Shown here: piece after piece, positions 7,276-64,000 of the stretch
Layout of the letters: every line of letters starts with the position of its first letter
Position numbering within the stretch: the stretch's first letter is position 1
Origin: Mugil cephalus
Taxonomy: Eukaryota > Chordata > Actinopteri > Mugiliformes > Mugilidae
Direction: 5' to 3'
Length of the DNA stretch: 64,000 bases
NCBI RefSeq assembly: GCF_022458985.1
Contig: NC_061778.1
Coordinates: forward strand, 3,179,501-3,243,500
Made by a program: the position numbers and the translations under genes
The notes under the pieces: generated by a model
Seen by the model: only the letters and a program-made list of their open reading frames with translations
Database searches by the model: none
What the model was told of the DNA's origin: nothing

Positions 7276-10200
7276 ATGTCGGACTCCATTAAAAACGTCG
7301 CGATATTTGGAGCCACGGGAATGACCGGACTGGCGACCCTGCCGCTGGCGGTGGCTGCAGGTAAGGATACGAACCAAACACCCAAATATAGAATAGAATA
7401 GAATAGAATAGAATAGAATAGAATAGAATAGAATAGAATAGAATAGAATAGAGTGTCCTTGGCTGATCCCTAATGGTTGCTTCATGTCGCGTTGTGACTA
7501 AATAAAGTTGGTGTTTTGCAGCACAGTGAGGTCACACAGGGATAAACCTGAACTCATGTGACTTTCCTGTCTAATGATCAATCAATAAATTCTGCATCTC
7601 TAATTAATAATATCTGGAATGCTTCATAATAAAAATAAAAGGTCAGTCACCCACATGGCTTCTCTTAAAATATTAAAATAAATCTACCTTTGTGTTGTTA
7701 TTGTTAACTACGGCCACACTTTAACATTACACACCCATATCTATTGTAATTGTTCAAAACTATTATGTTCATTTACTTAAACTGACACGTAATATTGTGA
7801 TATTTGACTTGATTTGTGTATTCTTTATAATTTCACATTTAAAATTAGGTTAAAACTTTTTTTTTTTTTTTAAAAAAAGACACTGAAATTTAAATTGTCA
7901 AATGAAATCACCTCCGTAAGCACATTATGTCGTATGATTCATTTGATTGAGCAGCATTTTCATTTCCCTCCCTCCAGGTCATCACAGGCCAAAACAAAAA
8001 AAACAAAAAAACAAAAAGCAACAAAAAAAAAACTGTTGAGTCATGTTGGACGTTAAGGGTCAGCGTTTAGCTGAGTCACAGTAGGCGGATGCACAAAGCT
8101 GCTCACTATCTGGTCTGGACATGAAGGGTGGGATTTCTGTCATGTAGGTGATGAAGATTGTGCAACAGTTTCTGGAAAAAAAGGAGCTGAATCTATTATG
8201 TCATGCAGTTCAGTTTTTAACAAGAACCAGTTATGACATAATTACCAAAACAAGGTGACAGTGACACTGTCCGGGTCAGTGTCACCAGCCCGGTGAAATA
8301 ATCGGTGCTTAATGACTCACACAAGGCAACATGTTTATTGTTTGTTGTTAAATTTTATCTCGAACATAAAAGAACAAAACAAACAAAAGAATAAAATTTA
8401 TTTCCAAAATGAATGAAAAAAGTTGATTAGAGTTCATTTTTATAATTCTAAAATTATAATTATTCTTTAATTCTAATTATAATTTGATGACTCACAAACT
8501 GATATGCACATGCTTTTAATAACTGTACGTACTCCAGGTTGTTTAAAATAAAATTTTCCTCTTAACAGAAAAATACTTTCTCTAGTTTGGAACAATTTTT
8601 TTTAAATGTTTTCAGGAAGCGTGTTATGCTTTGTTTAAATAGTACTAATGATGTTCCTCTCATCTCCATCACGAGACTTTAGGACTTTAGGAAATAAATG
8701 CGTTCACTAGGTGTAAAGGGAATAACTTTTGAACTTTAACGTTTGATTTTTAGGATCTTTAGTGACAGTAGTTTGTGTTTCTGCCCTCAGGATACAGTGT
8801 GACGGTGCTGGTACGTGACCCTGCTAAGCTGCCTGCTGACCACAAGGCCTCCAGAGTGGTGGTGGGAGACGTTCTGAATAAAGAGGACGTGAAGAAGACG
8901 ATGGAGGGCCAGGACGCCGTGATCATCATCCTCGGCACCAGGAACGACCTCAGTAAGGAGCTGTAGTTTAAAGCACAAGAAGAAGAAATCAAAGTCTTAT
9001 CTAGGCAGTGGAAAATAACAGTAGTTTTGGTCCGTGTGAACACTACTGCATTAATAAAAGCTAAATTTAGTGTCTACATCCATTCACTTTTGCTTTTTAC
9101 ATGCCTTTTTTTCATCAGTTTTCGTTACGGTTAAGTTTCATTTCCAGGTTTCTGCCGGTGTAATAACGCGAGACGTCCACTAGAGGTCCCCATTAGACTT
9201 TTACCGCATAGAACACTGTGACGTCATTGTATTCGTGTGATATGAGTAAAAGATGGATGAGATTTATGTAACTGTGCTAAAGAACACGCGTATTGAATAA
9301 TAACTACATGCAGATGTAACGTTATTAATTCAAATTAGTTCAAATGAGTCTTCACCTCAGTCTTCAGTCTCAGAACACTTCCTTTCAGTTTTTAAATTAA
9401 TTTTCTAAATACTGCATTTTCACATCTTCGCTTTACTCTTTGTGATAAAATAGCTCAAACAGAGTAATGCAAAGCAAAACTGGGGCTGTTCAAAAACCTT
9501 AGTGATGATCTGGTTTGTGTTCTTTAGGCCCGACCACCATGATGTCTGAGGGCACCAAGAACATCGTGGACATCATGAAGGCACGAGGAATCCGCAAAGT
9601 GATCGGCTGCATGTCAGGTTCGACTCGCCGATGCATTCGGCAAATATATCTCTGTTTTTTTTTTAGTGTATGATGTATGAAACATTGGTTCTTCATCTAC
9701 CTGAGACTGAGAATGAAAAGCAACTAAATGCCAAATATAAATGACAGAAAGCTACACGAGTTTCTTTTCTCTCTTCATCTTGGTCTTTCTCCCTGACAGC
9801 CTTCCTCCTGTGGGACCGCTCTAAAGTCCCGCCTCGCCTGGTCCCTGTGACGGAGGACCACGACAGGATGTACACCGTGCTGAAAACCTCGGGGCTGGAC
9901 TACGTGGCAGTTATGCCCCCTCACATCGCCGGTGAGTAGGACGTCGTGGAAACTGAAGAAAGAAAGAGTTGAACAGAACGTGCAGTGGTTATGGCGCGTT
10001 CTGTTTGTGCTCGGAAGTCAGAATTTCTACTCAGAAAATCGTAGAATCCTCACTACTACTACTAAAAAATGCAAATGTTGATTACACCAAGTTTCCACCA
10101 ACTTCTGTAACTGGAACGCCAACTTCCGCCCTCCGTCTTAAATGGAATGTACTATTTAACCATCTGATCTGAGATGAGTGACTTTTTCACGATATCATTT

Positions 10201-15735: not shown

Positions 15736-15748
15736 TCTCAGTTGAAAG

Positions 15749-16843
15749 ATGATCCTGAAGGGCCAGAAGCGTAAGCTCCCCCCAGAGGACGTGGAGGTTT
15801 CAGACACGAGCAGTCCCTCCTGGGAGACCCAGCGTCAGTTCGTGTTCTCCGTGTCCTTGAGCAAGTACCAGCGTAGCCAGGAGCTGCCCGAGCCCAGCCT
15901 GAGGCGGTCCGTCCTCATCGCCAACACCCTTCGGCAGATCAGCCTGGAGCCCTGCGGAGCGCCCTCTGCAGACGAGGAGGCGTCGCGACCTCACCCCAGC
16001 GCTTCGTCCGGCCTCTACGCAAGCGAGCACGAGTATGTTTCCGCTGTGGACAAACACCACTCTGCAGTGATGGCGTACGACAGCCACTTAGCTCTTTACG
16101 GCTGCCCCATGGCTTCTGTAGACGACGTGTCAAACTGCGCCGCAAGTCGGTGTCCGTCGAGCTACCACTCGACCGACTCGAACATCCCCGAGAACGCGGA
16201 AGAGGAGGACTGGGAGTCGATGTCCACGGATCCCGATTTCTCTCTTTCCGCTGCCATTTCCTCCATTCTCACCGCACTAGACTCTACCATCGACGGGAGC
16301 CCTCAGGCGGCTCCGCGGACGCCTCTCAGGTCCTTGGAGAACCTGTCGGGGCCCTACGAGGGAGGTGTGGCGTGGGTGAAGCAGGGAGTCCGGGGTTATG
16401 GCAACAGCTGGGAGCACCACGAGGAGCACAGGGCGCGGGAGGGCAGCGTGGAGGCGATGAGGTCCAGCTACCTCAGCGACCTCACCGTGGAGGACCTGTT
16501 CCACGACATAGACACGTCCCTGCTGGAGAGGGACATGGGCGTCCTCGGGCTCAGGAGCAGTGGGGACGGATATCCAGCCGGGGAGGATATTCTCCGGTAC
16601 CTCCCGCCTTTCTCCCCCTCCTCCTCCTCCTCCTCCTCCTCCTCCCCCTCGCATAATTTAACCCTCTCTCACAACCCGAGCCTGAAGTGCCTGCCTTCCT
16701 TCTCCTCCTTCAGCCCCTTAACGTCCCCTTCGTCTTCGCCGTCTCTCTCTTTTCTTCCGCCGTCCGCCTCGTTCTCCGGTCAGAACCACGCGAGGGAAGG
16801 ATTCGACTTGGAGCATCTGATGGAGATCTTGGTGGAGTCCTGA
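15749..16843 (+). CDS. sertad3: SERTA domain-containing protein 3 (TRIP-Br/RBT1 family), single coding exon, 364 aa
   Basis: The coding exon follows a pyrimidine-rich acceptor ending in AG at 15741, so only 7 nt of leader precede the ATG in this exon, as in other SERTAD genes with an untranslated first exon. Family members are nuclear co-regulators that link E2F/DP and cyclin control to PHD/bromodomain proteins. Visible parts: a basic KGQKRK N-terminus (4-9); the SERTA domain at about 31-70 with SLSKYQRS and PSLRRSVLIANTLRQI; DPDFSLSAAISSILTALD mid-protein; YLSDLTVEDLFHDIDTS, the acidic conserved block; and a C-terminal FDLEHLMEILVES. These blocks match SERTAD3 better than SERTAD1, SERTAD2 or CDCA4. 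At 364 aa it is far longer than human SERTAD3 (196 aa); the extra length is Ser-rich linker, including a TCC-encoded Ser run near residue 290. Identity to the family is firm; assignment to paralogue 3 is by motif match. Confidence 0.9.
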   Translation: MILKGQKRKLPPEDVEVSDTSSPSWETQRQFVFSVSLSKYQRSQELPEPSLRRSVLIANTLRQISLEPCGAPSADEEASRPHPSASSGLYASEHEYVSAVDKHHSAVMAYDSHLALYGCPMASVDDVSNCAASRCPSSYHSTDSNIPENAEEEDWESMSTDPDFSLSAAISSILTALDSTIDGSPQAAPRTPLRSLENLSGPYEGGVAWVKQGVRGYGNSWEHHEEHRAREGSVEAMRSSYLSDLTVEDLFHDIDTSLLERDMGVLGLRSSGDGYPAGEDILRYLPPFSPSSSSSSSSSPSHNLTLSHNPSLKCLPSFSSFSPLTSPSSSPSLSFLPPSASFSGQNHAREGFDLEHLMEILVES

Positions 16844-28294: not shown

Positions 28295-30112
28295 CAGGAA
28301 ACGTGCCAGTACGGATACACGCAGGCAGAAAATCAATGTTTGCTTTGTAAGTATAAGACGTGCTGCTGGCTGTAGATTTTGGAAAGAGGTTTAAAAGACC
28401 AGCACATAAATAGAAAGACTAAACATAAGTCATCTCATTCATCCGAGCGGAATTAGTTTAATCTAATCTAATTTAGACAGAAATGCTTTAATCCCATGTT
28501 ACTATAACGGTTTCTCTGCTGATTATGAGGCAAATAAAAAGCATCTGAACTCACCCATGACGCAGACCTGATACAGCGCCCTGTACTTCTGCCCAGGCTC
28601 CGTCCCCGGCACAAAGTCCCCGAGTCCGATGGTGCACAGCGAGATGAAGCAGAAGTAGATGCCGTCCAGGAAGGACCAGGACGCCTCCACCACGCTGAAC
28701 ACGGCCGCCGGCGCCAGGAAGAAGCACAGCACCACCAGGACCAGCAGCAGCACGAAGTGGACGGCGGTGGCCGGCCGCGGCTCCATGCCCGAGCGCTGCA
28801 GGAGGCTCACCGGGGCGAGGACCAGCGGGTACATGAGCCTCTGGACGCAGGCGGTGAGCACCAGCATGGTGAAGGGGACTCCGATCAGGGCGTAGAAGAT
28901 GGAGAAGGCCTTGCCGGTGTCGGACAGAGGAGTGGTGTGACCGTAACCTGGAGGGACGAGAAGAGGGAAGCTTTCGTCATCAGTTTGGGATCTAGTGAAT
29001 TTGGAGGCATAACAATTACTGTAATTTATATTATTGATGATACCTGAAATGTATTATTCTTTACTTTGTACGTAATTTACATTAGGTTTGTACGTGCATT
29101 GCTCTCTTTTGTAATATAGAAACTGGATTTGTGATAGTTTTGTGATTTACTTCTCCTGTAAGTGGTTATGTTGTGGCTGAAAAAAAGGAAACACTTTCTC
29201 GTCTTAAAACTTAACATTTCTTCCACCTATCAACACTGTCTTCTGCAGAGAATAACAACCGTATTCTTCTGGAGAGACACATTAAATCAGTGTAACATAA
29301 TAAACCTCCATTGTATTAGGAAGGAGGCAGAAAAATTATCTACTAGAATTAAGAAGAAATGTTTTTATATCACATAGTAGCAGGTCCACTCACGAATTAA
29401 TTATTGTACTTAAAAATGTCAACAAATGTCAACAGAGCTACGCTGGATAATAGTAGATTTAAATGTATATTTAGACCGTGAGTCAGTAAGTAAAGGTTAT
29501 TTTAGCCTAACTTAATGACAGTCAGGTAATCACATCTGGTTTTGGATGATGTGTTTAAAAGGTGCAGTCTGGAGGTCACTGGAGAGCGGGACAAACGTTT
29601 TCTTTGTGCGAATCAGCCTTCGGGTTATTATCCATCGTTACGGACAGAAAAACACAAGCACGGCTAGAGGATGAAACTCTGAGATCACATGAGCTGTCTG
29701 ACTGTACAAACACGGGGCGGAAAAAAATGTTTTTATGGACCGAAGAGAAATCTGATCACACTGACTCTGACCCCGAGGCTGGAGTCAGGTCAGACAGACT
29801 GAGATAAGGTGAGTGATGACTTTCTCAGTGTCTGTGTTCACCGAGTCCTGACATCTGAACGTCTGACACTTCAATAAATTCACCGTGGAGTCGAACCAGA
29901 CATCGAGCAGCCGCTTCCTTTCCTCTCATTTACCAACAATGTTCTTCTTTACAGCCACAGACAAGCTCTCAACTTACTTTCACTTTAATTCTCACTAATG
30001 CAGGAAAGTTAACATGTTTCAGTGGAGGTTAATTTAGAGGAAAGTTTTTTTGTTTATTATTGAAATGTATCCAGTTTAATGTCTCATTTTACTCTGAAAT
30101 AAACAACTGAAG

Positions 30113-30164
<52 letters not shown>

Positions 30165-33078
30165 GTATATATATATATATATAGAATCAATATATAACTC
30201 ATCAGAGTAACCATCTTCAGCTGATTTAACATGTGACTTTCCTTCTTTCTTTCTCAAATATTCTTCATCCCAGTTTTGTTGCAGACGTTCCCAGAAATGT
30301 GTGTTAAACCAGCTCCACGGGGTTAAAGTCTAGATGTTTCCATGTTTTCAAGCTTTCCATCTTGTTTTTATCCTGAGGTAGTTCTGGTAGAGCTCGGACT
30401 AAAGTTTTGGGTCATTATTTTGCTGTAGGTTGAAGTTCTGACCAACTATACCAGAGGAAACTGATGCTGTTGTGTACATCTATTGTGTATCTCTAGGGGA
30501 CAGATGTTGAGATCTGTGCTGTGAGATGTTCTCTTTCCACAGAGTGACCCTCAGAGGCCTTAGAGGTAACCTGATCTCTGCTACAGCCCCGGAGCTGTGG
30601 TCCTCGGGGGAAAACATCGTCTCAGACATGCAAACAAGCACGAAGCCATATTAGAAAACACGGCAAACGTTCAAAAACAAAATCTTACTTTTGCTCCTCG
30701 GGCTTCGATAACACAAACAACTCATAGCCTGAATGGAACTTGTGTTCCTGTACAACACAAAGACCACGGGGCTTTTAAAAATGCACAATACTGGTACAGT
30801 TTTAACATCATCAGAAAACACGGGGACCCCCGGGCAACTGCTTAGATTAAAAGGGTGTTTATTTCATATCTTTTGTTGTTAGCGTACATCAACGCTCCCT
30901 TACTCCTCACTGAAGCTGCAGTCACTTTGTGTGTCTGGGTGTGGACGTTTTAAAGGGCACTGCGTCTCTTTATATGTTTTTTTTTTATGTCACTAAGTCT
31001 TCTTCTCTTCTTCTTCTCTTGGTCTTACAGCTCAGAGGAAAATTAACCGGTGGTTTGTTTAAAACCTGAACGATCCTGCTAGATTTTGTCTGTAACTAGC
31101 TTGACGTTTCACGCATCACATACAGAAAACAAAGAGAAAACAAACTGGACACACAAACGTCACTTTTGTTCCGCTTCAAGCATGAATTTGCATTTCCTCT
31201 GCGCTCATATGAGTTTAGTTTAGATAACTGTGCAGGATGCAATAAAAACCCTGCAACAGGATTCACCGTTAGTAGAACACAGGAGCAGAAGTGTTGAGAC
31301 CGGGGCAACTCCAAGTCAAGTCAACTCAAAAACAAGTCACATCTTTGCATTTTCTGATCTCTGGCCGCAACAATAACAGAATTTATGAAAAACAACAGCT
31401 CCGGGTTCACATCAACCACAACTCTACTGTAGATTTCCTCTCTACACCAGGTGCTCGGTGACTTCCTGTCTGGCTCGTTTTTCTAGATCAAGTGGTTTTT
31501 TTTTTTATTGTAAGATAAACTGATTTCAATCGGATTCAAGATAAGGACTGAAATAAAAAAATAAAAAATGCATTGACGGGCCTTCCCTGCACCTCCTGGT
31601 GTTGTCCCTCAACATCCTGTTTAAACAGGAAACACATGAAACTGAGGACACATGATAGAGTTTCACGGCAGGATGACAATGTAGAGTTTTGTAATAACAT
31701 CAAGTTAATGACTAAACCGGCTAGACTGTGGAAACACTATAAAGTTAATTATCTGTGACACGAGGCTGTGTTTGCTTTTAAACTCTCTCAGGACAGGACG
31801 AGGCGTTGCTTTGCTAAGTAGGTATCAAACATGTGTGTCTGACCGGACAAACAGCCACAATAAACCATTGTTAGGGGGAAAATATAAACTCTTCATCTTC
31901 TTATAAGTTAATGCAGATGACTGCATACGCGGGGGCGACGCCACTCAGGTTTTAAAGGTATTAATGACAAAAGATCAGCTTAGTAACAAAATAAACAGCT
32001 TAAAGAGATGTTAGTTTTGTGGAGTTTGGAGGATTTAGAGAAATCAAAAGCAGCAGCAGCAGCGGCAGAAATGCTGGATGCAACACGGTCGTGTCTTTCG
32101 TTAAGTTGAAATTAACTCGCAGTGCACCACCGACCGCTGATGCTGTAAGTGTGTGATCATTTCAGGTTCACCTCAACATCACGGCACGGCCCGACTGGAC
32201 CCACAGAAACCTCTGTGGTGGAACAGGACCCCTCTGACACAGCTGCACCCTTCACTTCCTGTGACATCCAGGTCAGCGGCACACTGACACCATCAGCAGG
32301 TGTTCAGCCTGTCAGTCTGCAAACACTCAATGGAATAAAACCCCAGAGGATTCTGATAAAAACCTCAACTTTCTCTTCTCTAAGAGTCACTCAACCATCC
32401 TTTCACTATGTCTGATGAAGAAAAAGGGGCCTTGCGCGTTCAACTCGTTTTAAAGGTGTTCTTCTGTTTCAAGAAACCTAAATGTAGTTTTGAGGAAACT
32501 GGTTGTTCCCCCTGAGTCTAATGATGAGTCTGCTTTGATCCGAACTGACTCAAGCTGCGAGGCTCAGCTTCAACCATCACACGTGGCAAAACAACAGCAC
32601 AACACAGTCCAGCATCGAGTCAAATTCAAACACTAGTCACTACACTGGACTGCTGTGGTGCAGGTCTGTTAAAGTTTAAAACACTTTACGCGTCCTGCGT
32701 AAAAAAACGCCACTAAGTGACTCTCCTCGTTCGAACCTCTTGTGCTCTTTGTTTGGACTCACCGACAGTGGTGACCAGAGTGTTGGCGAAGAACATGGAG
32801 GATGCCAGGTCCCAGTTTGACGTGACGGATGAGTTCCTGAGGACGGAGACGCCGTACTTGTTGGCCGTCAGCACTTTGACCAGAAACTCTTCGAGCGACG
32901 CGGCGTTGACGCAGCTCTGGTTCAGAAACTCCCGCTTCAGGAGCTCCATGTCCTGGCGCAGATTGTCCTCCACCGGCCGCTCGATGCTGGAGAAAACAAG
33001 AGCCCCGAACAGCAGGTAGATGATATAAAAGACTATGAAGCCTGTAAGCAGCAGCCACGACCTGCCTACAGAACGCAT
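20452..33078 (-). CDS. kcnk6: Two-pore-domain K+ channel TWIK-2, 3 coding exons, 317 aa
   Basis: Exons on the minus strand: 33078-32763, 28947-28555, 20696-20452; GT-AG introns with matching phases give 317 codons (human KCNK6: 313). This is a background-leak K+ channel of plasma and endolysosomal membranes. TM1 is about residues 8-29. The extracellular cap carries Cys56, the equivalent of the family's inter-subunit disulphide Cys, and possible N-glycosylation sites NQS (53) and NSS (82). Selectivity filter 1 is TVGYG (104-108) and filter 2 is TIGLG (211-215). TM3 is about 168-190 and TM4 about 237-252. MADLHGLT after TM4 parallels human KCNK6 and differs from KCNK1. The last residues, YNSINKG, resemble the human YASIPR tail. 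I chose the ATG at 33078 because it gives the family's short N-terminus; the frame stays open to an ATG at 33228. Introns are about 3.8 and 7.9 kb and full of repeats. Confidence 0.95.
20995..21560 (+). repeat. Dispersed repeat copy (partner at 39.5-40.2 kb), kcnk6 intron 2
   Basis: It shares GCAGAAGACGTTATCTTTCA, CTGTCAATCTAAGC, CTCCTGTACACA-like, AGGCCCCGCCCC and GAGCCAATCA in order with the partner, then a TTTGAAATAAAAAA stretch. It ends in GGCCTGAAAAACATT and CAAGACCCCTG, a tail I associate with common teleost repeats. Confidence 0.75.
24304..24366 (+). repeat. Compound (AAT)n/(AAG)n microsatellite
   Basis: Trinucleotide runs of AAT and AAG alternate in kcnk6 intron 2. Confidence 0.9.
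25040..25195 (+). repeat. LINE-like 3'-end fragment, kcnk6 intron 2
   Basis: GAACTGAAGACGCTACTGTG, GGCAAAACATCGTCAAGAAA and ACCATGACCTGGATGACTGA are characteristic of a widespread fish interspersed repeat. It has no ORF. Family assignment is from memory. Confidence 0.5.
26985..27500 (+). repeat. Two tandem copies of an AT-rich unit of about 265 bp, kcnk6 intron 2
   Basis: Copy 1 (about 26985-27220) and copy 2 (about 27262-27500) share TTGTTACCA, AAGGGAAAAAAGTGTC, CAGTGTTTGTGATG and ATTGGAATATTTT in the same order. Divergence is moderate, so the duplication is not very recent. Confidence 0.75.
27734..27800 (+). repeat. (TG)n microsatellite
   Basis: A TG run with two TTTG interruptions, in kcnk6 intron 2. 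Confidence 0.9.
28241..28293 (+). repeat. (GT)n microsatellite
   Basis: About 26 perfect GT units, in kcnk6 intron 2 about 260 bp from exon 2. Confidence 0.9.
28978..29012 (+). repeat. Fragment of the 43.8-kb MITE family
   Basis: CAGTTTGGGATCTAGTGAAT and the following TTGGAGGC closely match the interior of the MITE at about 43964-43994. It lies just upstream of kcnk6 exon 2, in intron 1. Confidence 0.5.
30114..30183 (+). repeat. Poly-A plus (AT)n tract
   Basis: A run of A residues leads into AT repeats with two GT interruptions, in kcnk6 intron 1. Confidence 0.9.
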
Positions 33079-33812
33079 GTCTGGTTTTAGTCCTGGATCA
33101 ACATGAGCCGGGGTGCCGGGCCGGAGATTTCCCTCTCTTGCTTCTGTGGCTACTTTTCTTTCTTTTCTTCTCTGTGTGGGAAACTTTTTGGGGGCTGTCC
33201 CAGTTGAACTTGAAGCCCTCCTTGTCATCGCATCCTCCTCCCACAGCGCAGAGAGAGGGTGTGTTCAGCCCCTGGAGGTGCGTCCTGGATCCGGTGTCAA
33301 GGTGCGTCTACTCAGCTTTCATCGTTTTATACGATGGACTTTAAGATTAAATTAAATAATTTAGTTTGAGTTTAGTTATATTCCAACTAAAAAATGTGCT
33401 CCGCTGTTTTGTCTCAAATCGAGTATCTGTCTCTACTCTGTTCTTGTTGCTTCAGAGCTGTGGTGTCTATTTGGAGCAGTAAATGTGATCTATTCTCAGT
33501 CCCGTAGGTTCGCAGAACGCAGTGTCTCTGTATTTGACTTGTGAAAGTATTTCACTCTCTTTTTTTTGTCTCAGATGCTGTAGCTCCACCCTCCTTGAAA
33601 TGTGGCCCTTCATCTACAGTCTGTGTTTTCAGTTCCTGGTGGTGAAGTTCAGGCTGAATCATCTTTGTCACTCTGGTAATTTAGACCAAAGAAAAGGAGG
33701 AAGATGTGAGCTGCACAAAAAAAAAGTGAAGCCTTCAAAGTCCGGTCATTTTGACTTGTTCAGTAGTGCTTTTTATAAGTTAAATCTAAACATCTGTTTC
33801 TTCTGTCTGAAC

Positions 33813-39124: not shown

Positions 39125-42100
39125 TCACTCCACAATGTTTCTGTTGTAGTCGTACGACAGCCGCCGCTTGGCAGCAGCGTTCTGATTGGCCGAGGGGAGG
39201 CCAGGTGACAGGCGGCGGTTGGCGGTCCAGGGAGCAGGTCTGCTTTCCTGAAAAGAAAACTGAAAATCAGTAACGCGGCAGAAGATTGGTATGTGAACAG
39301 ATAATTAGGCTACAACAAATGTGTTCATCAGCTTAATTATTCATGCACTCATTAAGCAAAACATCTTGTATTTCCATGTGAGACTGAAAAGCTTTGTGCA
39401 TCATTTAGTAATTGATTGATGGGAAAATAACAAGTGGATTAAATGATGATTGGAATTTAAAAACTGAATTAAAGACAGAGGAGAAACCTCATGGTCTAGA
39501 ACAGATCTTCAACAGGGTCTGCAGAGGTACTGCAGGAGGATCACAGAATCTTTGGTTGATTAGACATTTTTTATATATATTTTTTTTTTAGTTTTCCACT
39601 TTTAAAATTTATTTAAATACACATTAACATTTACTGAAGGGATAAATGAAGGCAGAAGACGTTATCTTTCAGTCAACACTTCTCTCATACGGCTCTTATT
39701 CACAGATCGCTACGCTATTTGAGATCTGTCAATCTAAGCCTCCTGTACACAGCAGGCCCCGCCCCTATCGCTGCTGAGCCAATCACAAGGTCGGATATTA
39801 CACGCTGACTCTGTCAGGTTCCCCGCTATTGGCCGAGGAAAACAGCAATGTTAGCAGAAGAGAAGCTAACGGTGTAGCTCGCTACCGTCAACATCCATTC
39901 ATCCGAGCTTAGATAAGTTGTGTGCTTCTTTTCAGGGTCAGACATTACTCATTAATGTGGAAGTATGTGTCCCATCACATGGCTTAGTGATCCACTGTCC
40001 CTACTACATTTAGCTACGTTTAAAGTCAAAACTTGAATCTGTCAATTAATTTCTTTATCTGTCAATTATATAAACACACACACCCATTAGGTGTGTTTAT
40101 GTAGTTGCACCGTACTGTTGCAAACGTTTGAAATAAAAAAAATGAAAGTTTGAACCTATGCATTATTTGAATAGCTTAATATTGAATGCAAAATTATAAT
40201 AATGTATATACATACAAGCAGCGCTATGCCGTGAAGTGTCAAAACCTGCAGTTCTTCTAATAACCACTAGAGGCTGGCTCTAAAAGTGAGTCATAGACCT
40301 CCATGTTAAAATGTTGTTTACAGTCTAGTACAGACATAGAATTGGAGCTAATTACTCCATTAATGTTTTTTTTTTTTTTTAAAATATAACTAGACTCTTT
40401 AAATGATATTAAGGCTCAAAGTTGTGCAGAATTAAAGGCTGCAGCTGCTTTGAGTGACAGGTGGATGTTGTCTCAGGTTGCTAGCTGTCTGCCTCGGTGT
40501 CACTCAGCCTCTTCTGATTCTTTAACGCAGCAGGCAACAGTCACTCTGTGCAGTAAATCTACCATTTGCATACAGTGCAGGTGCTCTGTAGTTTTGTGAG
40601 TCTGTAGGTACGTGCATTAGTCCTCCAGAATGGAGCGTTTTGCATAGAACAGCGGTCGCGTCATTTGAATAAAGCTGCAGGCTTCCAGGGCATCACTCAA
40701 ACAGCACCATCAGTTCATTTTACAGGCCGTCAAGGCCGCGCTGACAAATCCATTCCGGCGGCCTTGAAGCTTCACAAATTGAAAATGAACACTAAGCACT
40801 TTGTGCTATGTCTTCTGCTTGAAATCAGAACCAGAGGGACTGAGAGCGGCGTATCGTATCCGGAGGAGGGAAGTGACGGTCTTTACTCACAGTGTGGGGC
40901 TGCTCCAGGTGTAAAGTCTTCAGCAGCAGGTCACGGGACACGCCGTTGGCTCTCTTGTATCTCTGGCCAATCATTTTGTTCAAGTCATGGAAACTGTCCA
41001 ACAGCCTGCACGGCACAGACACGCAGAGCAAACAGAGACTCCATGAACAGATGTACGTTTGTTTTAAAGCATTCCTTTTGCTTCTTTTTCAATTGTGTTG
41101 AAACGCACAAAAATCTTTTCTTGATTTTATTTTTTTAATGCATAAATACATAATATATCTAAGCTTCTTTCAGATTAAAAGAAACTTATATATTTAGATT
41201 TTATTTTAGTGTTAATTTTCATGTGGATATATTGTATTTATGAGAAGATTGAGAAGAAGAACATTTCGCCATACTCTATACTATAGAGTATAGCGAAATG
41301 TATAGACTATACAACAAGTATGTTATAATTTATATTATACTACAATAAACAAGTATTATGTTCTCATCACTCTCGGCCTCTGAAACCTCCACTTCAGTCG
41401 CTTTTTTACACCTCAAACTTTCCAGATTTATTTCTCTGTCACTCAAACTTTTGAACTTCATCTAATAATTAGATTTCTGTTCTGGAAATGTATGTAAATG
41501 AGAACATATTTACATATGAGCTCTTTTGAATACATAAACCAAACATTTCAGAAAAACTGTGTGATACAAAGAATAATTATCTTAGTGCAACTAATTAGCT
41601 GGAGAAGATTCATGAAGCTTCATTTCAACATTCATCTAATAAGACTCCCTCGAATCCTGTTAATTAATTATTTCATTTATTAAACTCTTGAATAATGATA
41701 AAAGGCATCTCCAATACTCAAATGTCACGGTTTTGTTGGTTGCATCATTCAGTTATTTGCTCTGATGTGATAATTCTTTCCAACAGTTTCACTTGCAGTT
41801 CAACACGTTGACCACTTGGCGGACACGTTTGTTTTCATTTTTTAAAATAAAATAAGATATTTTATCTCTTATTTTATCTCTGCACACACACCTTGAACAG
41901 AGATGTTACAACATGTACAAAATTGTTCATGTTGCATTTAATAGGAAATTATTTTGTTATAGATGAACAAAGTTATTTTCAAGACTAAACAAGGGCGTGT
42001 GTTTAAGTAAATGAAAATCAAGATTAATGTAAAACAACATTGCATTTCTGTTATGCAGATAATTTGAAAGCTGTTCAATTTTTCTTTTAGAATAGAATAG

Positions 42101-45100
42101 AATAGAATAGAATAGAATAGAATAGAATAGAATAGAATAGAATAGAAAAACCTTTCTTTGTCCCACAGTGGGGAAATTGCAGTTTGCAACAGCATAAAAG
42201 TAGCTGAAAAGTAGCAAGAATAAACAGTGGGCTGTGTAAAAGATAAATAATAAGATTTTTAAAAAAATAGAATAAAGAATATAGAATTTTAGAATATAGA
42301 ATATAGTATTGACATATATACAAAAAGTATTGAACTGCAACAAAAGTAATTCGATTGTAACAAAAAGTATTGAATTGCAAACAGACAGTGATTGTTTAAA
42401 TCTTTCTATCAACCTCTCTTTGATTTGAACTATTGAGCTTATTCAGTGTGGACTGAACTGAGCAGTTCAGTCCACACACAAACCCTGCAGAGTACGACAA
42501 ACACTAACACACCGGAGGGTTGGACCTACCCCTGGTCCTGGCTGGCTCTGCCCCTGAGGACCTGGGTCAGGGTGGGAACAGTATGGAGGTCACTTGAAGA
42601 CGAACCAGGCAGTGAGGGGAAGGCTTCAGCAAAGACAGCCGCCTACAAACGGTGACGAAGAGACAACATCAGACGGCTTGAAACAGTTTCAAACATTTAG
42701 GAAAATTAATCTCACGTGCATTAAATATAAAGTTGCATATTCATGAAAAGCCCTTGAAGCCACGACACTCGTTTGAAACGGCTCATTAGAAAGCGCTCTC
42801 CTCCGCAGCAGCTTTGGACAGGGCTCATTTTTCATCTGCATCTTTGTGCTTTGAGTTTAATGTCCACTGGGACACTCCTCCTCCTCCCCCTCCTCCCTGT
42901 GGCGTCGGCTTCTTTTTTCATTTTTATGGAAAAAAAAAATAAAAAATTTAAAATAAAAAATTGCAGCATATACCGCCCTAATGTGACTCGCACAGCTCCG
43001 CAAAATGCTGATTAATTTGAAGTCTGAAAACTTAGTCACCCATCCCAGAGGGCGTTGTCAGGATGAGCTGTGTTTCCATGGTAATAGCGCAGGAAAGCGA
43101 ATACCTCTCAAGGGGCAACATTACTTCTTCCCAAAGAGGATGGGATTTAGGGTCACAGACTCATACAGTCCAGGCTTGATTAAAATCACTGACCGACGCA
43201 GGTAACGCAGAAATCTTCCCACCTCCACCAGAGACTTTAACAGCCGCCACTGCTACATAAAAGCACTTAATACAGAAACCCAGTAGCAGCCTGAGCCCAC
43301 AGCTCACCAGTTATTATTGCACCTGTTTAATTCATCTGCACGGTTTGGTTCATCACTCGGCGTGCACGGATTTCCACATGAATAACTTTCACATGATCCA
43401 CAGGGGAAGTCGGTCAGGAAATTACAAATAACCCAACATCAGGAAGCGCGACCAGGTGTTGAGAGTTCGAAAGAGAAATACCAGGTTGTGATTGGTGGAG
43501 AGTCCTCCTCTGCCCTCCTCCGCGGCGCTGCTCGGCCACCACTGCTCCACGGCGTCCCGGCCTCCATCCTGAGGGGGGTCCTGAGGAAAGGCCGCCCAGG
43601 TGTCGTCTGATTGGTGGAAGGAGTCGTCTGTCCAGCCTGGCGTGCAGTGGGTCGACTCCCTGGGGACGGCGTGGTTTCCCAGAGCTGTTTGCACACACAC
43701 ACACATATAATCAGACCTACAGCGACTACTCTAGTCCCGGCTATGTTGTGCTGTGAATAGCCGTCTTTGCCCTCATTAGACTGACCAACTGAATCTATGT
43801 TACAGTTACAGCATTAACAGGAATACGCACCGACCAGGCATAACATTATGACCACCTCCCTAATATTGTGTAGGCCTCCAAAAACAGTTGTGACGGGATG
43901 CTGTCAGTGGGGGCCTGTGGGTTGAGGGGAGGGGCCTCTGTGGATCATCCCACAGACACTTGATCAGTTTGGGATCTTTTGAATTTGGAGGCCAGGTGAC
44001 ATCCACAACAATGGATCTAAAAGTTTCCCAGCCAAACACCGAATTGTCACAAGATGGTTCAACGTCATTTACTTCTGCTCAGTGTCAGTGGTCATAATGT
44101 TGTGGCTGATCGGTGTACATTATCGTTAACATGTCTCTGCCTTCGTCACTAATTAGGATGAACTGATAAAGGGTCAAATAACACTGAATTTACTGAGATT
44201 TTGATGCATCTGAAGCCTCAGACTTTCTTTAACTTCTTTTTCTTGCCCCAGTAAAACTCTGAATGCATTTTGGAAACCGATTCCTATGATGAATGTATTA
44301 GATGTTGCAGTTCTACACTCCCTACAGTACTAATTTGGGGCCTGTATGAATTATAACTCTGAGTTTTCTGCTCCATCCTCCTGTTAATCACCACTGTCCT
44401 CTCCTCGCGTCGTGTTGCCTGCTGTTGCTCAAAAGTTGCCCGCTGCATCGGGAGCTGCAGGGACTCCTCGCGTTTGTGCGTTTGACTTTAATCACACCGA
44501 GGCGTCTGACTGCAAGGAGACGTTTCAGTGGATATTTGTATCTCCCTTTGATTCCTGCTGCCGCGACGCCTCAACGTGTTACTCCCCATTGCTCAGACGT
44601 TGCATGATGTATGTGTCTGACGCTTTACTCTTCTCTGCGCGTGAGAGTTTCTCTTCTCTTCACCCATTGCTCTATAACCTGAGGCTAACGGGAGCTTAGC
44701 GTCCTCCTCCTCCTCCTCCTCCTCCTCCTCCTCCCTTTACCCCAACTCTGAATGATTAATACGGTGCATCGAGAGCGAGAGATCGGTTAGGAATCCAGGT
44801 CAGGGCAGACTAGAATCTCATCTCCACTGTGCTTACCAAGGCAAGAAACTACTCCTCATATTCATCACAAACTGTTACGGGTCAACAATTTTTAGATTTC
44901 AGACTCTGAACAGACAGGCTCATTTTTATAATATTAATAACAAATGTTATGCTTATTAAAGGTGGAGTGTGGTAGTACTCAAATGTTTCTTTGTACATGA
45001 TCTCGACTTGTTTTCTTTTCTGAATGGAAATGATGCTTTTTAGCTCAACCTACCAACTTTTAATTAAATATTTAATGCATCTGGATGAATGGAGTTGAAT

Positions 45101-54853: not shown

Positions 54854-55140
54854 TCAGTAGTCCAACATGTCGCGAGTCGTCGTTGTTGTTGTTGTGGCTG
54901 AAGTTTCCCCCGTAGTCGTTTCTCTGGTAACCACCTGCCGGGTGATTCTGGTGGTCTTGGTCACCATGGTGACAGTTCCCTCCTCGGTGGAGGAGACGTG
55001 GTGCTCTTCGGACATTTGCTGGGTAGCAAAGTCGAGGCCAGATGTGTGCTGGCAGAAAGACCCCGTGACGTCGGCCTCCCCTCCCATCTCACCCTTCCGC
55101 TGGGCCTGAGGAGAACCCTCTGGGGTTATCTGGAGGAAGC
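54854..55140 (-). CDS. Last coding exon of the AHNAK/periaxin-like gene, Thr-rich tail
   Basis: This exon of the gene above starts after a TTGCAG acceptor and encodes 95 residues ending TRDMLDY. It begins GFLQITPEGSPQAQRKGEMG, then has a tail rich in Thr and Val: GTVTMVTKTTRITRQVV and a TTTTTTT run. It contains no KMP/SLPK repeat. Mammalian AHNAK ends within its giant exon, so a separate terminal exon is a structural difference; I do not recognise the tail. Confidence 0.8.
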
Positions 55141-58100
55141 CTGCAAGGACGAGGTGAGGAAACGAAGAGAGACAAAAACGGGGAAGGAAAATAGAGGAGG
55201 ATAGGTGAAGAGATCAGGAGTGAAAAAGAAACTTAGTCTTGTGTAACAGAGGGAAAACGGGAGATGATGTATTAATAATTCACAGGACAAAAACAAATAG
55301 CATGGATAAATTATGTAGACTTTAATGCATATTGTAATACATTCTGTCATAATAAAATATGGGAATAAATCCTCACCTGTGGAGTGTGGCTTCAGGGTGA
55401 TTTTAGGAACCTTGAACCAGTGCGAAGACTCTCTCTCCTGAGACTCGCTCCATGTCTGAACCTTTGCTGAGCTGAACTCCATGGTGAAACTAGCCGGGGA
55501 CTCGGAGTTGTCCCTGTCCAGCATGTCTGTTCTGGCATGAGATGACACCACATCCTTTGAAGTATCCTTGGCGAAACCCGCATAGTCCATCTTGTCTTGT
55601 TTTACTTCTCCTGGTGATGAATCTATTCCCAGTTTCCCGCTCCTCTCCGTGTCCTCCTCCTTTGCAGCCGTCTTGCCATACGGAGTGGTGAGCTCCACCT
55701 TGGGAAGTTTGATTTTACCACTGAATGTCCCTTTATCATCCTTGGAGGCCTTGTGAGGATCTTTTTCGCCGTTGAGACTTGAACTCGAACCTTCTCCCTT
55801 GAGATTTGTGTCCAACGACCCTGACCCCTTGCCTGAAGAAAGTGTCACTTTGGGCATTTTCATCTTCCCTCCCTTTGACTTGTCCTCTTCTGCAGCAGCC
55901 GATTTATCTTTGGATTTCCCAAAGCTTGGCTTCATTTTGATTTTGGGCATCTTTACTTTGACATCCTCGGTCTCACTCTCAGCTACCCTCTCCTCTTTTT
56001 GGAGGCCTGCGGTTGCAGTAGTCTCGTCTGTTGAGGGAGGATGTACCAAAACAAACACAGCTTTCTTCACTTTGGGTATTTTAGGGCCCTCATACTGAAT
56101 TTCTTGTCCATAGATATGCTTCCGTTCATCAGGTGAGGACATGGAGGGTAATGGGACGCCGAACTTTGGGATTTTGATTTTCTTGCCGCTTTCTGTTTTG
56201 TCGTCATCTTCATCTTGAGATGTACCAATATCAAAGTCTATGTCTGGTATCCTGGGGACTTTGATTTCTGTGCCTGATGGTGAGACTCCTCCTATTTCTG
56301 TTTTCACACTTATGCTTGGCGGTGTAACCTCTGGCACTGGGATGTTAATACCATCCTGTTTGTGTCCATTTAGAACTTCAGCTTCAGCTTTCTTTTTTGG
56401 CAGTCCAATCTTGAATTTTTTTCCTTTGCCTTTTTTTGCTTTGCTGCTGGCTCCTGCTGTGTTAAGGTCCAAGTCAGGGAGTTCAACTTTTTTCTTGTCC
56501 TTCTTGCCCTGTCCTCTGTGAATCCCTAAATCAAGCTCTAAGTCTCCTTTTGGACCTTTGATATCTAACATTGGCATCTTGAATTTCAGACCTTTGTGCT
56601 CTCCCTCGACATGCAAACCAGCTTCACCATGAGCTCCCTTGTCCAGACCTGGAGATGTGACATCCATCTCTATAGCAGGTGCTTCAGTATCTCTGCTTTT
56701 ACCTTTAGGAAGTGAAATATCAACTTTTGGCATTTTGAGATGTGGCAGTTTGATGATTCCTCCCTCTGCCTCAATTTTCTCTGCTGGTGAGTCAATATTT
56801 GCTTTTCCTTGAGGGATTGTTATTTGTACATTTGGCATCTTCAACTGTTCCTCATCTCCTTTAATCTCCACATCTGGACCTTCAACTGAGGCTTTTCCTT
56901 TAGGAAGAGATATGTCAACTTTTGGCATTTTCATATGTGGCATTTTGAATTTCCCTCCTTCTCCTTCTATCTCCACATCTGGACCCTCAATTTTTCCTTT
57001 AGGCAGAGAGATGTCAACATCTGGACCTTCAGTCTTCCCTTTGTGTAGTGAAAGATCAATATGTGGCATTTTCATATGTGGCATTTTGAATGTTCCTCCT
57101 TCTCCTTTAATCTCCACCTCTGGACCTTCAACTTTTCCTTTAGGCAGAGAGATGTCAACATCTGGACCTTCAATCTTCCCTTTGGGTAATGAAAGACCAA
57201 CATGTGGCATTTTCATATGTGGCATTTTGAATTTTCCTCCTGCATCTCCAGTAATTTCCACCTCTGGACTTTCAACTTTTTCTTTAGGCAGAGAGACATT
57301 GACATCTGGACCTTGAATCTTCCCTTTGGGCAGTGAAATGTCAACAGAAGGCATGCTAATATGTGGCATCTTGAATTTTCCTCCTTCCCCTCTAATCTCC
57401 ACCTCTGGACCTTCAACTTTTCCTTTAGGCAGAGGGATGTCAACATCTGGACCTTCAATCTTCCCTTTGGGTAATGAAAGACCAACATGTGGCATTTTCA
57501 TATGTGGCATTTTGAATTTTCCTCCTTCTCCTTTAATCTCCACATCTGGACCTTCAACTTTTCCTTTAGGCAGAGAGACGTCAACATCTGGACCTTCAAT
57601 CTTCCCCTTGGGCAGTGAAAGGTCAATGTGTGGCATTTTCATATGTGGCATCTTGAATTTTCCTCCTTCTCCTTTAATCTCCACATCTGGACCTTCAACT
57701 TTTCCTTTAAGCAGAGAGACGTCAACATCTGCACCTTCAATCTTCCCCTTGGGCAGTGAAAGGTCAATGTGTGGCATTTTCATATGTGGCATCTTGAATT
57801 TTCCTCCTTCTCCTTTAATCTCCACCTCTGGACCTTCAACTTTTCCTTTAGGCAGGGAGATGTCAACATCTGGACCTTCAATCTTCCCCTTGGGCAGTGA
57901 AAGGTCAACGTGTGGCATTTTCATATGTGGCATTTTGAATTTTCCTCCTGCATCTCCAGTAATTTCCACATCTGGACTTTCAACTTGTCCTTTAGGCAGA
58001 GAAATGTCAACATCTGGACCTTCAATCTTCCCTTTGGGTAGTGAAATGTCAACAGATGGCATGCTAATATGTGGCATTTTGAATTTTCCTCCTTCTCCTT

Positions 58101-61100
58101 TAATCTCCACATCTGGACCTTCAACTTTTCCTTTAGGCAGAGAGATGTCAACATCTGGACCTTCAATCTTCCCTTTGGGAAATGAAAGACCAACATGTGG
58201 CATTTTCATATGTGGCATCTTGAATTTTCCTCCTTCTCCTTTAATCTCCACCTCTGGACCTTCAACTTTTCCTTTAGGCAGAGAGATGTCAACATCTGGA
58301 CCTTCAATCTTCCCTTTGGGTAATGAAAGACCAACATGTGGCATTTTCATATGTGGCATTTTGAATTTTCCTCCTGCATCTCCAGTAATTTCCACCTCTG
58401 GACTTTCAACTTTTCCTTTAGGCAGAGAGACATCGACATCTGGACCTTGAATCTTCCCTTTGGGCAGTGAAATGTCAACAGAAGGCATACTAATATGTGG
58501 CATCTTGAATTTCCCCCCTTCTCCTTTAATCTCCACCTCTGGACCTTCAACTTTTCCTTTAGGCAGAGAGACGTCAACATCTGGACCTTCAATCTTCCCT
58601 TTGGGTAGTGAAAGATCAATATGTGGCATTTTCATATGTGGCATTTTGAATTTTCCTCCTGCATCTCCAGTAATTTCCACCTCTGGACCTTCAACTTTTC
58701 CTTTAGGCAGAGAAATGTCAACATCTGGACCTTCAATCTTCCCTTTGGGTAGTGAAATGTCAACAGATGGCATGCTAATATGTGGCATTTTGAATTTTCC
58801 TCCTTCTCCTTTAATCTCCACATCTGGACCTTCAATCTTCCCTTTGGGAAATGAAAGACCAACATGTGGCATTTTCATATGTGGCATCTTGAATTTTCCT
58901 CCTTCTCCTTTAATCTCCACATCTGAACCTTCAACTTTTCCTTTAGGCAGAGAGACGTCAACATCTGCACCTTCAATCTTCCCCTTGGGCAGTGAAAGGT
59001 CAATGTGTGGCATTTTCATATGTGGCATCTTGAATTTCCCGCCTTCTCCTTTAATCTCCACCTCTGGACCTTCAACTTTTCCTTTAGGCAGAGAGACTTC
59101 AACATCTGGACCTTCAATCTTCCCTTTGGGTAATGAAAGACCAACATGTGGCATTTTCATATGTGGCATTTTGAATTTTCCTCCTGCATCTCCAGTAATT
59201 TCCACCTCTGGACTTTCAACTTTTCCTTTAGGCAGAGAGACATCGACATCTGGACCTTAATCTTCCCTTTGGGCAGTGAAATGTCAACAGAAGGCATACT
59301 AATATGTGGCATCTTGAATTCCCCCCTTCTCCTTTAATCTCCACCTCTGGACCTTCAACTTTTCCTTTAGGCAGAGAGACGTCAACATCTGGACCTTCAA
59401 TCTTCCCCTTGGGTAGTGAAAGATCAATATGTGGCATTTTCATATGTGGCATTTTGAATTTTCCTCCTGCATCTCCTTTGACCCCCACATCTGGACCTTC
59501 AACTTCTCCTTTGGGCAGAGAAATGTCATACATCTGGACCTTGAATCTTCCCTTTTGGGCAGTGAAATGTCAACAGAAGGCATACTAATATGTGGCATCT
59601 TGAATTTTGCTCCTTCTCCTTTAATCTCCACATCTGGACCTTCAACTTTTCCCTTAGGCATGGAGATGTCAACATCTGGACCTTCAATCTTCCCTTTGGG
59701 TAATGAAAGATCAACATGTGGCATTTTCATATGTGGCATTTTGAATTTTCCTCCTGCATCTCCAGTAATTTCCACATCTGGACCTTCAACTTTTCCTTTG
59801 GGCAGAGAGACGTCAACATCTGGACCTTCAATCTTCCCTTTGGGTAATGAAAGACCAACATGTGGCATTTTCATATGTGGCATTTTGAATTTTCCCCCTT
59901 CTCCTTTAATCTCCACATCTGGACCTTCAACTTTTCCTTTAGGCAGAGAGATGTCAACATGTGGACCTTCAATCTTCCCTTTGGGTAATGAAAGATCAAT
60001 ATGTGGCATTTTCATATGTGGCATTTTGAATTTTCCTCCTGCATCTCCTTTGACCTCCACATCTGGACCTTCAACTTCTCCTTTGGGCAGAGAAATGTCA
60101 ACATCTGGACCTTGAATCTTCCCTTTGGGCAGTGAAATGTCAACAGAAGGCATACTAATATGTGGCATCTTGAATTTTCCTCCTTCTCCTTTAATCTCCA
60201 TCTCTGGACCTTCAACTTTTCCTTTAGGCAGAGAGATGTCAACATCTGGACCTTCAATCTTCCCTTTGGGTAATGAAAGACCAACATGTGGCATTTTCAT
60301 ATGTGGCATTTTGAATTTTCCTCCTGCCTCTCCAGTAATTTCCACATCTGGACCTTCAACTTTTCCTTTCGGCAGAGAGACATCAACATCTGCACCTTCA
60401 ATCTTCCCCTTGGGCAGTGAAATGTCAACAGAAGGCATACTAATATGTGGCATTTTGAATTTTCCTCCTTTTCCTTTTATCTCCACCTCTGGACCTTCAA
60501 CTTTTCCTTTAGGCAGGGAGATGTCAACATCTGGACCTTGAATCTTCCCCTTGGGTAGTGAAAGATCAACATGTGGCATTTTTATATGTGGCATCTTGAA
60601 TTTTCCTCCTTCTCCTTTAATCTCCACATCTGGACCTTCAACTTTTCCTTTAGGCAGAGAGACGTCAACATCTGGACCTTCAATCTTCCCCTTGGGCAGT
60701 GAAAGGTCAATGTGTGGCATTTTCATATGTGGCATTTTGAATTTTCCTCCTGCATCTCCTTTGACCCCCACATCTGGACCTTCAACTTCTCCTTTGGGCA
60801 GAGAAATGTCAACATCTGGACCTTGAATCTTCCCTTTGGGCAGTGAAATGTCAACAGAAGGCATACTAATATGTGGCATCTTGAATTTTGCTCCTTCTCC
60901 TTTAATCTCCACATCTGGACCTTCAACTTTTCCCTTAGGCATGGAGATGTCAACATCTGGACCTTCAATCTTCCCTTTGGGTAATGAAAGACCAACATGT
61001 GGCATTTTCATATGTGGCATTTTGAATTTTCCTCCTGCATCTCCAGTAATTTCCACATCTGGACCTTCAACTTTTCCTTTGGGCAGAGAGACATCAACAT

Positions 61101-64000
61101 CTGCACCTTCAATCTTCCCCTTGGGCAGTGAAATGTCAACAGAAGGCATACTAATATGTGGCATTTTGAATTTTCCTCCTTCTCCTTTTATCTCCACCTC
61201 TGGACCTTCAACTTTTCCTTTAGGCAGGGAGATGTCAACATCTGGACCTTGAATCTTCCCCTTGGGTAGTGAAAGATCAACATGTGGCATTTTTATATGT
61301 GGCATCTTGAATTTTCCTCCTTCTCCTTTAATCTCCACATCTGGACCTTCAACTTTTCCTTTAGGCAGAGAGACGTCAACATCTGGACCTTCAATCTTCC
61401 CCTTGGGCAGTGAAAGGTCAATGTGTGGCATTTTCATATGTGGCATTTTGAATTTTCCTCCTGCATCTCCTTTAATCTCCACTTCTGGACCTTCAACTTT
61501 TCCTTTAGGCAGGGAGATGTCAACATCTGGACCTTCAATTTTTCCTTTAGGCAGAGAGACGTCGACATCTGGACCTTGAATCTTTCCTTTGGGTAGTGAA
61601 ATGTCAACAGAGGGCATGCTAAGTGTTGGCATCTTGAATTTTCCACCTACTCCTTTGATGTCAATCTCTGGACCTTCAATCTTACCCTTGGGCACTGAAA
61701 CATCAAGATCTGGCACCTTGAATTTTCCTCCTGCATCTCCCTGTAATTCTACTTCTGGACCTTCAATATGTCCTTTTGGGAGAGATAAATCAACATTTGG
61801 CATTTTCCAATGAGGCATTTTGAATTTTCCTCCACTGCTTCCTTCTATATCAACATCTGGACCTTCAGTCCTTCCCTTGGGCAGTGAAATGTCAACAGAA
61901 GGCATGCTAATGTGTGGCATTTTGAATTTTCCGCCTTTTCCTTTAATCTCCACCTCTGGACCCTCAAATTTTTCTTCAGGCAGAGACATGTCAACATCTG
62001 GCATTTTCATGTAAGGCATTTTGAATTTTCCTTCTCCTTGTCCTTCCATCTCTATTTCAGGACCATCAGGACCTTTGAGTTTTCCTTTAGGAAGAGAGAT
62101 GTCAATGCTGGGCATTTTTAAATGAGGCATTTTTATATGTGGCATGTCCAACTTGCCTCCTCCCTCAATTTCAACATCTGGTGCATGAAGGTCTCCAGAT
62201 TTGCCTTTAGGAAGAGACATGTCAATTGATGGCATTGATATATGAGGCAGTTTGAACTTTCCTTCACTTCCTTTTAGCTCCACGTCTGGTCCTTCAATCT
62301 TTGGTGACTTCCCTTTTGGCAGGGCCACATCCAGGTCTATTTTGGGGAGCGAAACATCAATTGTTGGCATTTTGGGAATTTTAAGGTTTCCCTCATATCC
62401 TCTGATATCAGCATCAGAAACATCAACTTCAGCTTTGGGCAGAAGAACCTCTGTCTCTGGTGTTTTAGCTGCTGGCAGTGACAGCTCAACAGAAGGCATC
62501 TTGACCTTGGCTTTGGCCTCAAGCTCACCACTTGGCTTTCCCAAATCCTTTTCTTTGGAGCCAAATCCCGGCATGGAGAACTTAGGCAGTTTGAGCGTGA
62601 CATCCGGTGCATGGAGGCCACCTTTACCTTCTACATCTGCTTCCAGTTTTCCACCAAGCTCTCCCTCTGGGAGTTTACCCTTTGGTGATGACATTTTAAA
62701 CTTGGGAAATTTCATTTTGTATTTTGACTTTACATCTGGGCCCTCAACATTGATTTCCGGTTTAGGAACGTCAATTTCGCCCCTTTTCATTTTAACATCC
62801 ACATCTGGACAAGACACTGATACATCTGCATCCCTTCTGGAAAATCCAAATGAGGGCATTTTGAATTTAGGTTTCTTTGCCTTGACTTTTCCATCTCCGT
62901 CAAACTCTACTGATGGTGCCCTAACCTCTCCTTCCATGTGTGGTAGACTGAGGGAAACATCTCCCTTGGGCCCTGATAATCCCAAATCACCGCTCTTTGA
63001 CTTTCCGCCAAATCTAGGGAGAGTAAAACTAGGCACTTTGAGGGACACATTGGGTAGATCGAAGCTGCCCCCTGAAGAAGGCCTACCTCCCTCTGCTTTC
63101 AGAAGCTCCACTTCTACATCATCACCTTTAGATTTAGTTAGGCCAAAGTCTAGATCGACCTTTGGAGCTGAAATGTCAACTGTTGGTAGTTTGACTGATG
63201 GAAGTTTGCCAGCAGGTCCTTCAGTTTCAATTCCTCCTCTGGCTTTTCCTTTGGAAAGTGAAATATCAATGTCTGGCATCTCAATTTTGCCAGCCTTGAA
63301 GTCTGGGCCTTTTATTTTGACGTCACCCTCTGGGAGACTGACCTTTGGCAAAGAAATATCCAATTTTGGCATTTTGAATTTGCCTCCCTTCAACTCGGAA
63401 CCTTCAATATCAAGGTCCGCCTCAACGTTTCCTTTGGGGAGTGAAACATCTACATCTGGCATCTCTGTTTTCCCACCCTTCATATCAGGGCCTTTTATTT
63501 TGATGTTGCCCTCTGGGAGACTCACTTTTGGTAAAGACACATCAAATGTTGGCATTTTGAACTCGCCACCCTTTACTTCAGGGCCTTCAACATCAAGGCC
63601 ACCCTCAACTTTTCCTTTTGGGAATGAAATGTCCCCTTCAAGTTCTGGTCCTTCAATGTCAACATCAACTCCCTTTGTTTTCATTTTAGGGAGAGAGATA
63701 TCAAATGTTGGCATTTTAAACTTGCCTCCTTTACCAGTGTGTCCATCAATGTCAATATCAACATCGGCCTTTCCTTTTGGAAGTGAGATATCAGCGGCTG
63801 GGATTTCAATATTTCCTTTCACATCTGGTCCTTCCACATTGACGTCAGCTTTTGGGAGACTTACTTTTGGTAAAGAAACATCAAATTTGGGCATTTTGAA
63901 TTTCCCGCCATTTACCTCAGGGCCTTCGACATTTATGTCACCCTCAACCTTTGGTAGAGAAACATCAACAGTTGGGATTTTGACCTTTCCTCCTTTAATA
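54854..64000 (-). CDS. AHNAK/periaxin-family giant repeat scaffold protein, 3' part (5' end beyond window)
   Basis: Two coding exons are visible on the minus strand: a giant one from the right edge to 55377, and a last one at 55140-54854 with a GT-AG junction in phase. It encodes about 2,970 residues in this window. Family members (AHNAK, AHNAK2, PRX) are membrane-cytoskeleton scaffolds with an N-terminal PDZ domain, which would lie outside the window. From N to C: a diverged repeat region (64.0-61.6 kb) with MPxxDVSLPK-type units; a homogeneous array of 47-48-residue units built on KFKMPHMKMPH and SLPKGKIEGPDVD (61.6-56.9 kb); a Lys-rich stretch (KKDKKK, KAKKGKGKKFK) that could be a nuclear signal; KIPKVKKAVFVLVHPP; and a Ser/Thr-rich tail. 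Linkage to blvrb and sertad3 favours prx, while repeat chemistry is closer to AHNAK. Four single-base indels at 59258-59556 break then restore the frame and are probably sequence errors. Confidence 0.92.
56900..61640 (-). repeat. Homogenised in-frame coding tandem array, 141/144-bp units
   Basis: About thirty units alternate between a 47-residue form ending EIKGEGG and a 48-residue form ending EITGDAGG or VKGDAGG. Units carry either the HMKMPH(V/I) or the HISMPSVDI variant. Neighbouring units are so alike at DNA level that blocks of several units repeat nearly exactly: about 60121-60750 matches 60832-61461 at a spacing of 711 bp, and about 59400-59760 matches 60690-61050 at about 1,282 bp. 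Upstream (61.64-64 kb) the units are clearly diverged. Confidence 0.92.

Follow-up and report, generated by a model that had tools for sequence, protein, structure and literature searches.

Giant repeat proteins of the AHNAK type carry an N-terminal PDZ-like domain. In fish, ahnak is treated in Mozambique tilapia in a part of a published study (PMC8692795) that has no bearing on the indels considered here. The other known system that is relevant to the present locus is the one-base error that persists in repeats of assemblies made from long reads. Parts of a work on bacterial assemblies (PMC8812927) describe how reads settle on whichever repeat instance is free of the error, so that the error stays uncovered, and name errors in homopolymer length as the commonest residual kind. 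In the case of vertebrate assemblies, parts of PMC8081667 state that, before polishing, short indels in the CLR consensus were the commonest errors and caused frameshifts, and that falsely duplicated sequence attracts reads; this is the paper of the Vertebrate Genomes Project.

The window analysed here, a stretch of 64,000 nucleotides of Mugil cephalus taken as a whole, contains an array of near-identical coding repeats on the minus strand at about 61600-56900, these limits being approximate; its landmark spacings are mostly 141 or 144 bases and once 99. The 99-base spacing, at 58797-58896, is 42 bases shorter than 141 and in frame. With 32 landmark words, there are 31 spacings, and 29 of these are divisible by three; the remaining ones, of 146 and 283 bases, span a stretch that contains four one-base indels, and their total, 429, is again a multiple of three. 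These four indels aside, the array is what an AHNAK-like gene should have, namely short repeats that code over a great length within a single large exon. The name itself is given tentatively after the style of the repeats, short repeats such as KGKIEGPDVDVSLPKGKVEGPDVEIKGEGGKFKMPHMKMPHV presumably being typical of the family. A Pfam search of the array frames at an E value of 0.01 gave no match to an AHNAK model. Both array frames (55129-63999) match the Pfam family DUF4097 (Toastrack) above the cut-off, the only family to do so, and this match is probably driven by the repeats.

Two long open frames meet at the indels. The upstream frame (63999-59440, minus strand) comprises 1519 codons, is open at the edge of the window, and is closed by a stop at 59442-59440 that comes after both insertions have shifted the frame. 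The downstream frame (59256-55126, minus strand) probably ceases to code at a GT donor past 55377, the last base of the large exon as judged from the putative splice signal, so that its coding part would be 59256-55377, or 3,880 bases. A putative GT-AG intron of 236 bases, located between the exon bases 55377 and 55140 and interrupting a codon behind its first base, would then lead to a putative last exon on the same strand (55140-54854), which is in phase and reads FLQITPEGSPQAQ and onward to a stop. The gene thus looks intact apart from the indels, with open frames on both flanks, a third-position bias, and an in-phase intron and last exon; this is judged on the portion within the window, the 5' part of the gene lying beyond the window edge (64000).

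The indels were placed by aligning 59700-59151 (minus strand) with the rest of the array under a copying model that permitted mismatches, one-base gaps and template switches. One base is inserted at 59556 (it can be any base of 59553-59556) relative to a sister copy near 60838, where a run of three A becomes four on the minus strand, a T run on the plus strand. The second insertion, at 59529, is an A within GTTGAC on the minus strand (T on the plus strand), outside a homopolymer, relative to the sister near 60812. One base is deleted at 59321 relative to a sister near 58512, which shortens a run of three A, preceded by six G, to two, and the second deletion, at 59259 relative to the sister near 58449, is a C absent from ATTCAAGG, again outside a homopolymer. 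Thus, two of the four alter a run of three A and the other two lie outside homopolymers. The only substitution in the aligned stretch is at 59408. All four positions, as well as the clean sister copies at about 60838-60812 for the insertions and about 58512-58449 for the deletions, agree with those given in an earlier sequence-only reading of this DNA. That reading had also claimed a net frame shift of zero between open flanks, and this holds: the spacings of 146 and 283 bases add up to 429, the original frame resumes downstream, and 1519 codons and 3,880 bases are open on the two sides. Its warning about automatic annotation is likewise sound, given that a literal reading runs into the stop at 59442-59440, only 38 codons past the first insertion and 4,063 bases short of the end of the large exon.

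To judge the cluster, we compared it with 13 control tiles of 300 bases (3,900 bases in all), located at 61600-59801 and 59199-57100, using a panel of templates that did not include the suspect stretch; the tiles omit 59800-59601 and everything below 57100. Within 59600-59201 there are four indels and one substitution, and the 13 tiles have 74 substitutions without a single indel (Fisher P 3.3e-6), so that the suspect stretch has the one-base indels with few substitutions that consensus errors would give. The probability that four uniformly distributed points fall within 298 of 8,871 bases is 1.5e-4. It should be noted that an earlier scan of 15 tiles, in which the panel included the suspect stretch, gave one insertion in the control tile 58800-58501. 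This insertion is taken to be an effect of the deletion-bearing copy serving as a template, a view in line with the absence of indels from the 13 tiles, which have other borders and were compared with the panel lacking that stretch. By these comparisons, the cluster is of another kind than the differences that have accumulated among the copies; on their own, they do not separate error from mutation.

We favour the view that the four indels are probably residual single-base errors of the consensus in an intact AHNAK-like gene, because they are nearly without substitutions, have near-identical sisters, and lie in a gene that is otherwise open. The course of events may have been as follows. A draft, presumably of long reads, would have carried one-base errors in the faulty copy, and the animal's own DNA would be without the indels. 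Reads from this DNA would then align equally well or better to the near-identical sisters located near 60.8 kb and near 58.5 kb, and polishing, if this is how the assembly was treated, would fail with little correcting evidence left over the faulty copy. Near-identical, indel-free copies able to attract reads are indeed present: over the indel-bearing parts, the sisters differ by at most one substitution. When all 150-base windows overlapping an indel (n=389) were considered, substitutions relative to a single sister were fewer than indels in 277, 62 were ties, none was worse, and the remaining 50 span the switch between sisters described below and have no single sister. Hence, reads without the indels should mostly prefer the sister or tie with it. 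A counterpoint is that the two indels outside homopolymers are unlike the commonest residual kind of error. A second counterpoint is that low mappability is not supported as a sufficient cause: for 400 150-mers sampled elsewhere in the array, an exact twin exists in 38 cases and a twin with at most one mismatch in 91, and the frame is unbroken there. Two single-copy coding ORFs with a family match were inspected in the window and both are open, a number too small to give an error rate.

If the indels are real, they could represent a recent null or truncating allele, fixed or present in one haplotype, that arose by several mutations or by a single event. The sequence-only reading had argued that decay would not be expected to restore the frame exactly. 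This argument is weak, and we have rejected frame restoration as evidence of an artefact, since four random one-base indels cancel by chance with a probability of 0.375 (6/16), a value that leaves room for a real allele. Moreover, after a recent event the remainder of the gene would still be in the intact state that is observed, and a very recent real mutation would leave open frames and a codon bias no different from those seen here. Independent decay, on the other hand, should yield more substitutions than indels, and at least four indels among five changes have a probability of only 5e-4 to 7e-3 for an assumed indel share of 0.10-0.20. Within the window, neither disabling changes beyond this one spot nor relaxed constraint, the two marks of a pseudogene formed by decay, were found; the private substitutions in the control tiles fall on codon positions 1, 2 and 3 in the numbers 23, 10 and 41 (n=74; P 5e-5). 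The stop at 59442-59440 would also cost the protein roughly half of the array, namely its second half, together with the last exon. A stop so far upstream of an exon junction would be expected to trigger nonsense-mediated decay. Taken together, we hold a real allele of this sort to be quite improbable.

How the suspect stretch relates to its sisters bears on several of the alternatives. The segment 59710-59430 equals the upstream sister exactly, the insertions aside (offsets +1281 and +1283), and the segment 59476-59099 differs from the downstream sister (offsets -808 and -810) by one substitution and the two deletions. In a gapless comparison on the minus strand, the closest sister therefore switches from offset +1283 to -808 within 59476-59430, an interval of 47 bases, with both insertions on the side of the upstream sister and both deletions on the side of the downstream one. 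The location of the cluster on a switch between sister registers would suit a real allele made in a single event, by error-prone repair or by a template switch between array copies. A very recent, real cluster of this specific kind, in which an error-prone template switch left four indels around the 47-base interval and a truncated allele, has in our view a slim chance.

The same switch might instead mark a misassembled joint, where copies were collapsed or blocks of sisters falsely joined and a poorly supported consensus gave rise to the indels. The switch from one closest sister to the other, which separates the two insertions from the two deletions, speaks for such a joint, as does the small number of private substitutions in the stretch, 1 in 400 bases versus 74 in 3,900. 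As proof of a false joint, the switch was nevertheless rejected: 10 template switches were found in the 13 control tiles, so that switching of register is common in this array. In addition, the 429 bases across the stretch amount to three units of 141-144 bases, which likewise speaks against such a joint. A faulty joint is for these reasons an unlikely source of the indels. Of the two artefacts that the sequence-only reading had put forward together, it is thus the error in consensus polishing that stands as the best reading, with its excess of indels, near-identical sisters and open gene, and collapse of the repeats is the part that lacks direct support.

A further possibility is that real indels are present and that the cell circumvents them, either by recoding through ribosomal frameshifting or by small introns. 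The zero net shift and the resumption of the frame would fit with such a device. It would have to operate as four separate shifts within 298 bases, in a frame that, after the insertions, meets the stop at 59442-59440 ahead of the first deletion; and the other spacings of the array, 29 of 31 being in frame, need nothing of the kind. By this reasoning, we judge recoding or small introns to be very unlikely, with next to no chance of being correct.

Several other features of the window were recorded. ORFs are also open on the plus strand over the array (56813-57316, 57317-58450, 58451-59260 and 59420-60115); this is what a repeated unit without antisense stops gives and is not evidence of a gene. 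On the minus strand, 28526-29053 is an exon of a two-pore potassium channel whose best match among solved structures is KCNK6 (E 2e-44). The ORF at 32716-33264 may be the first exon of this channel, but Pfam gave no channel match in it. A 365-codon ORF on the plus strand (15746-16843) has a SERTA motif according to Pfam. The translations of the ORFs at 6948-7469 and 41957-42442 contain FYSIL runs, which suggest pentanucleotide repeats.

If the indels are residual errors of the consensus, as we think probable, the case is an ordinary one whose importance is confined to annotation. Gene prediction could break up an intact gene, insert introns that do not exist, or label it a pseudogene, and the artefact could mislead work on gene loss or on variants of AHNAK-like genes. 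It would also be an example of errors that persist in a single copy among near-identical coding repeats, with indel-free copies less than 1.3 kb away. Were the indels real, this would be a locus that reveals how a tandem coding array gains clustered indels.

Compared with known systems, the gene resembles the AHNAK, AHNAK2 and periaxin family of giant repeat proteins in having a very long exon of short repeats; in the present case a putative last exon, a short one, comes after it. It differs from them in that the unit is mostly 47-48 codons, and the window does not reach its N-terminal part. The indels resemble the residual errors of long-read assemblies, as described in parts of PMC8812927 and PMC8081667, in two respects: they are one-base indels that break the frame within near-identical repeats, and error-free copies that could attract the reads are present. 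They differ from those described errors in that here the error itself is deduced from the assembled sequence, and in that half of the indels lie outside homopolymers.
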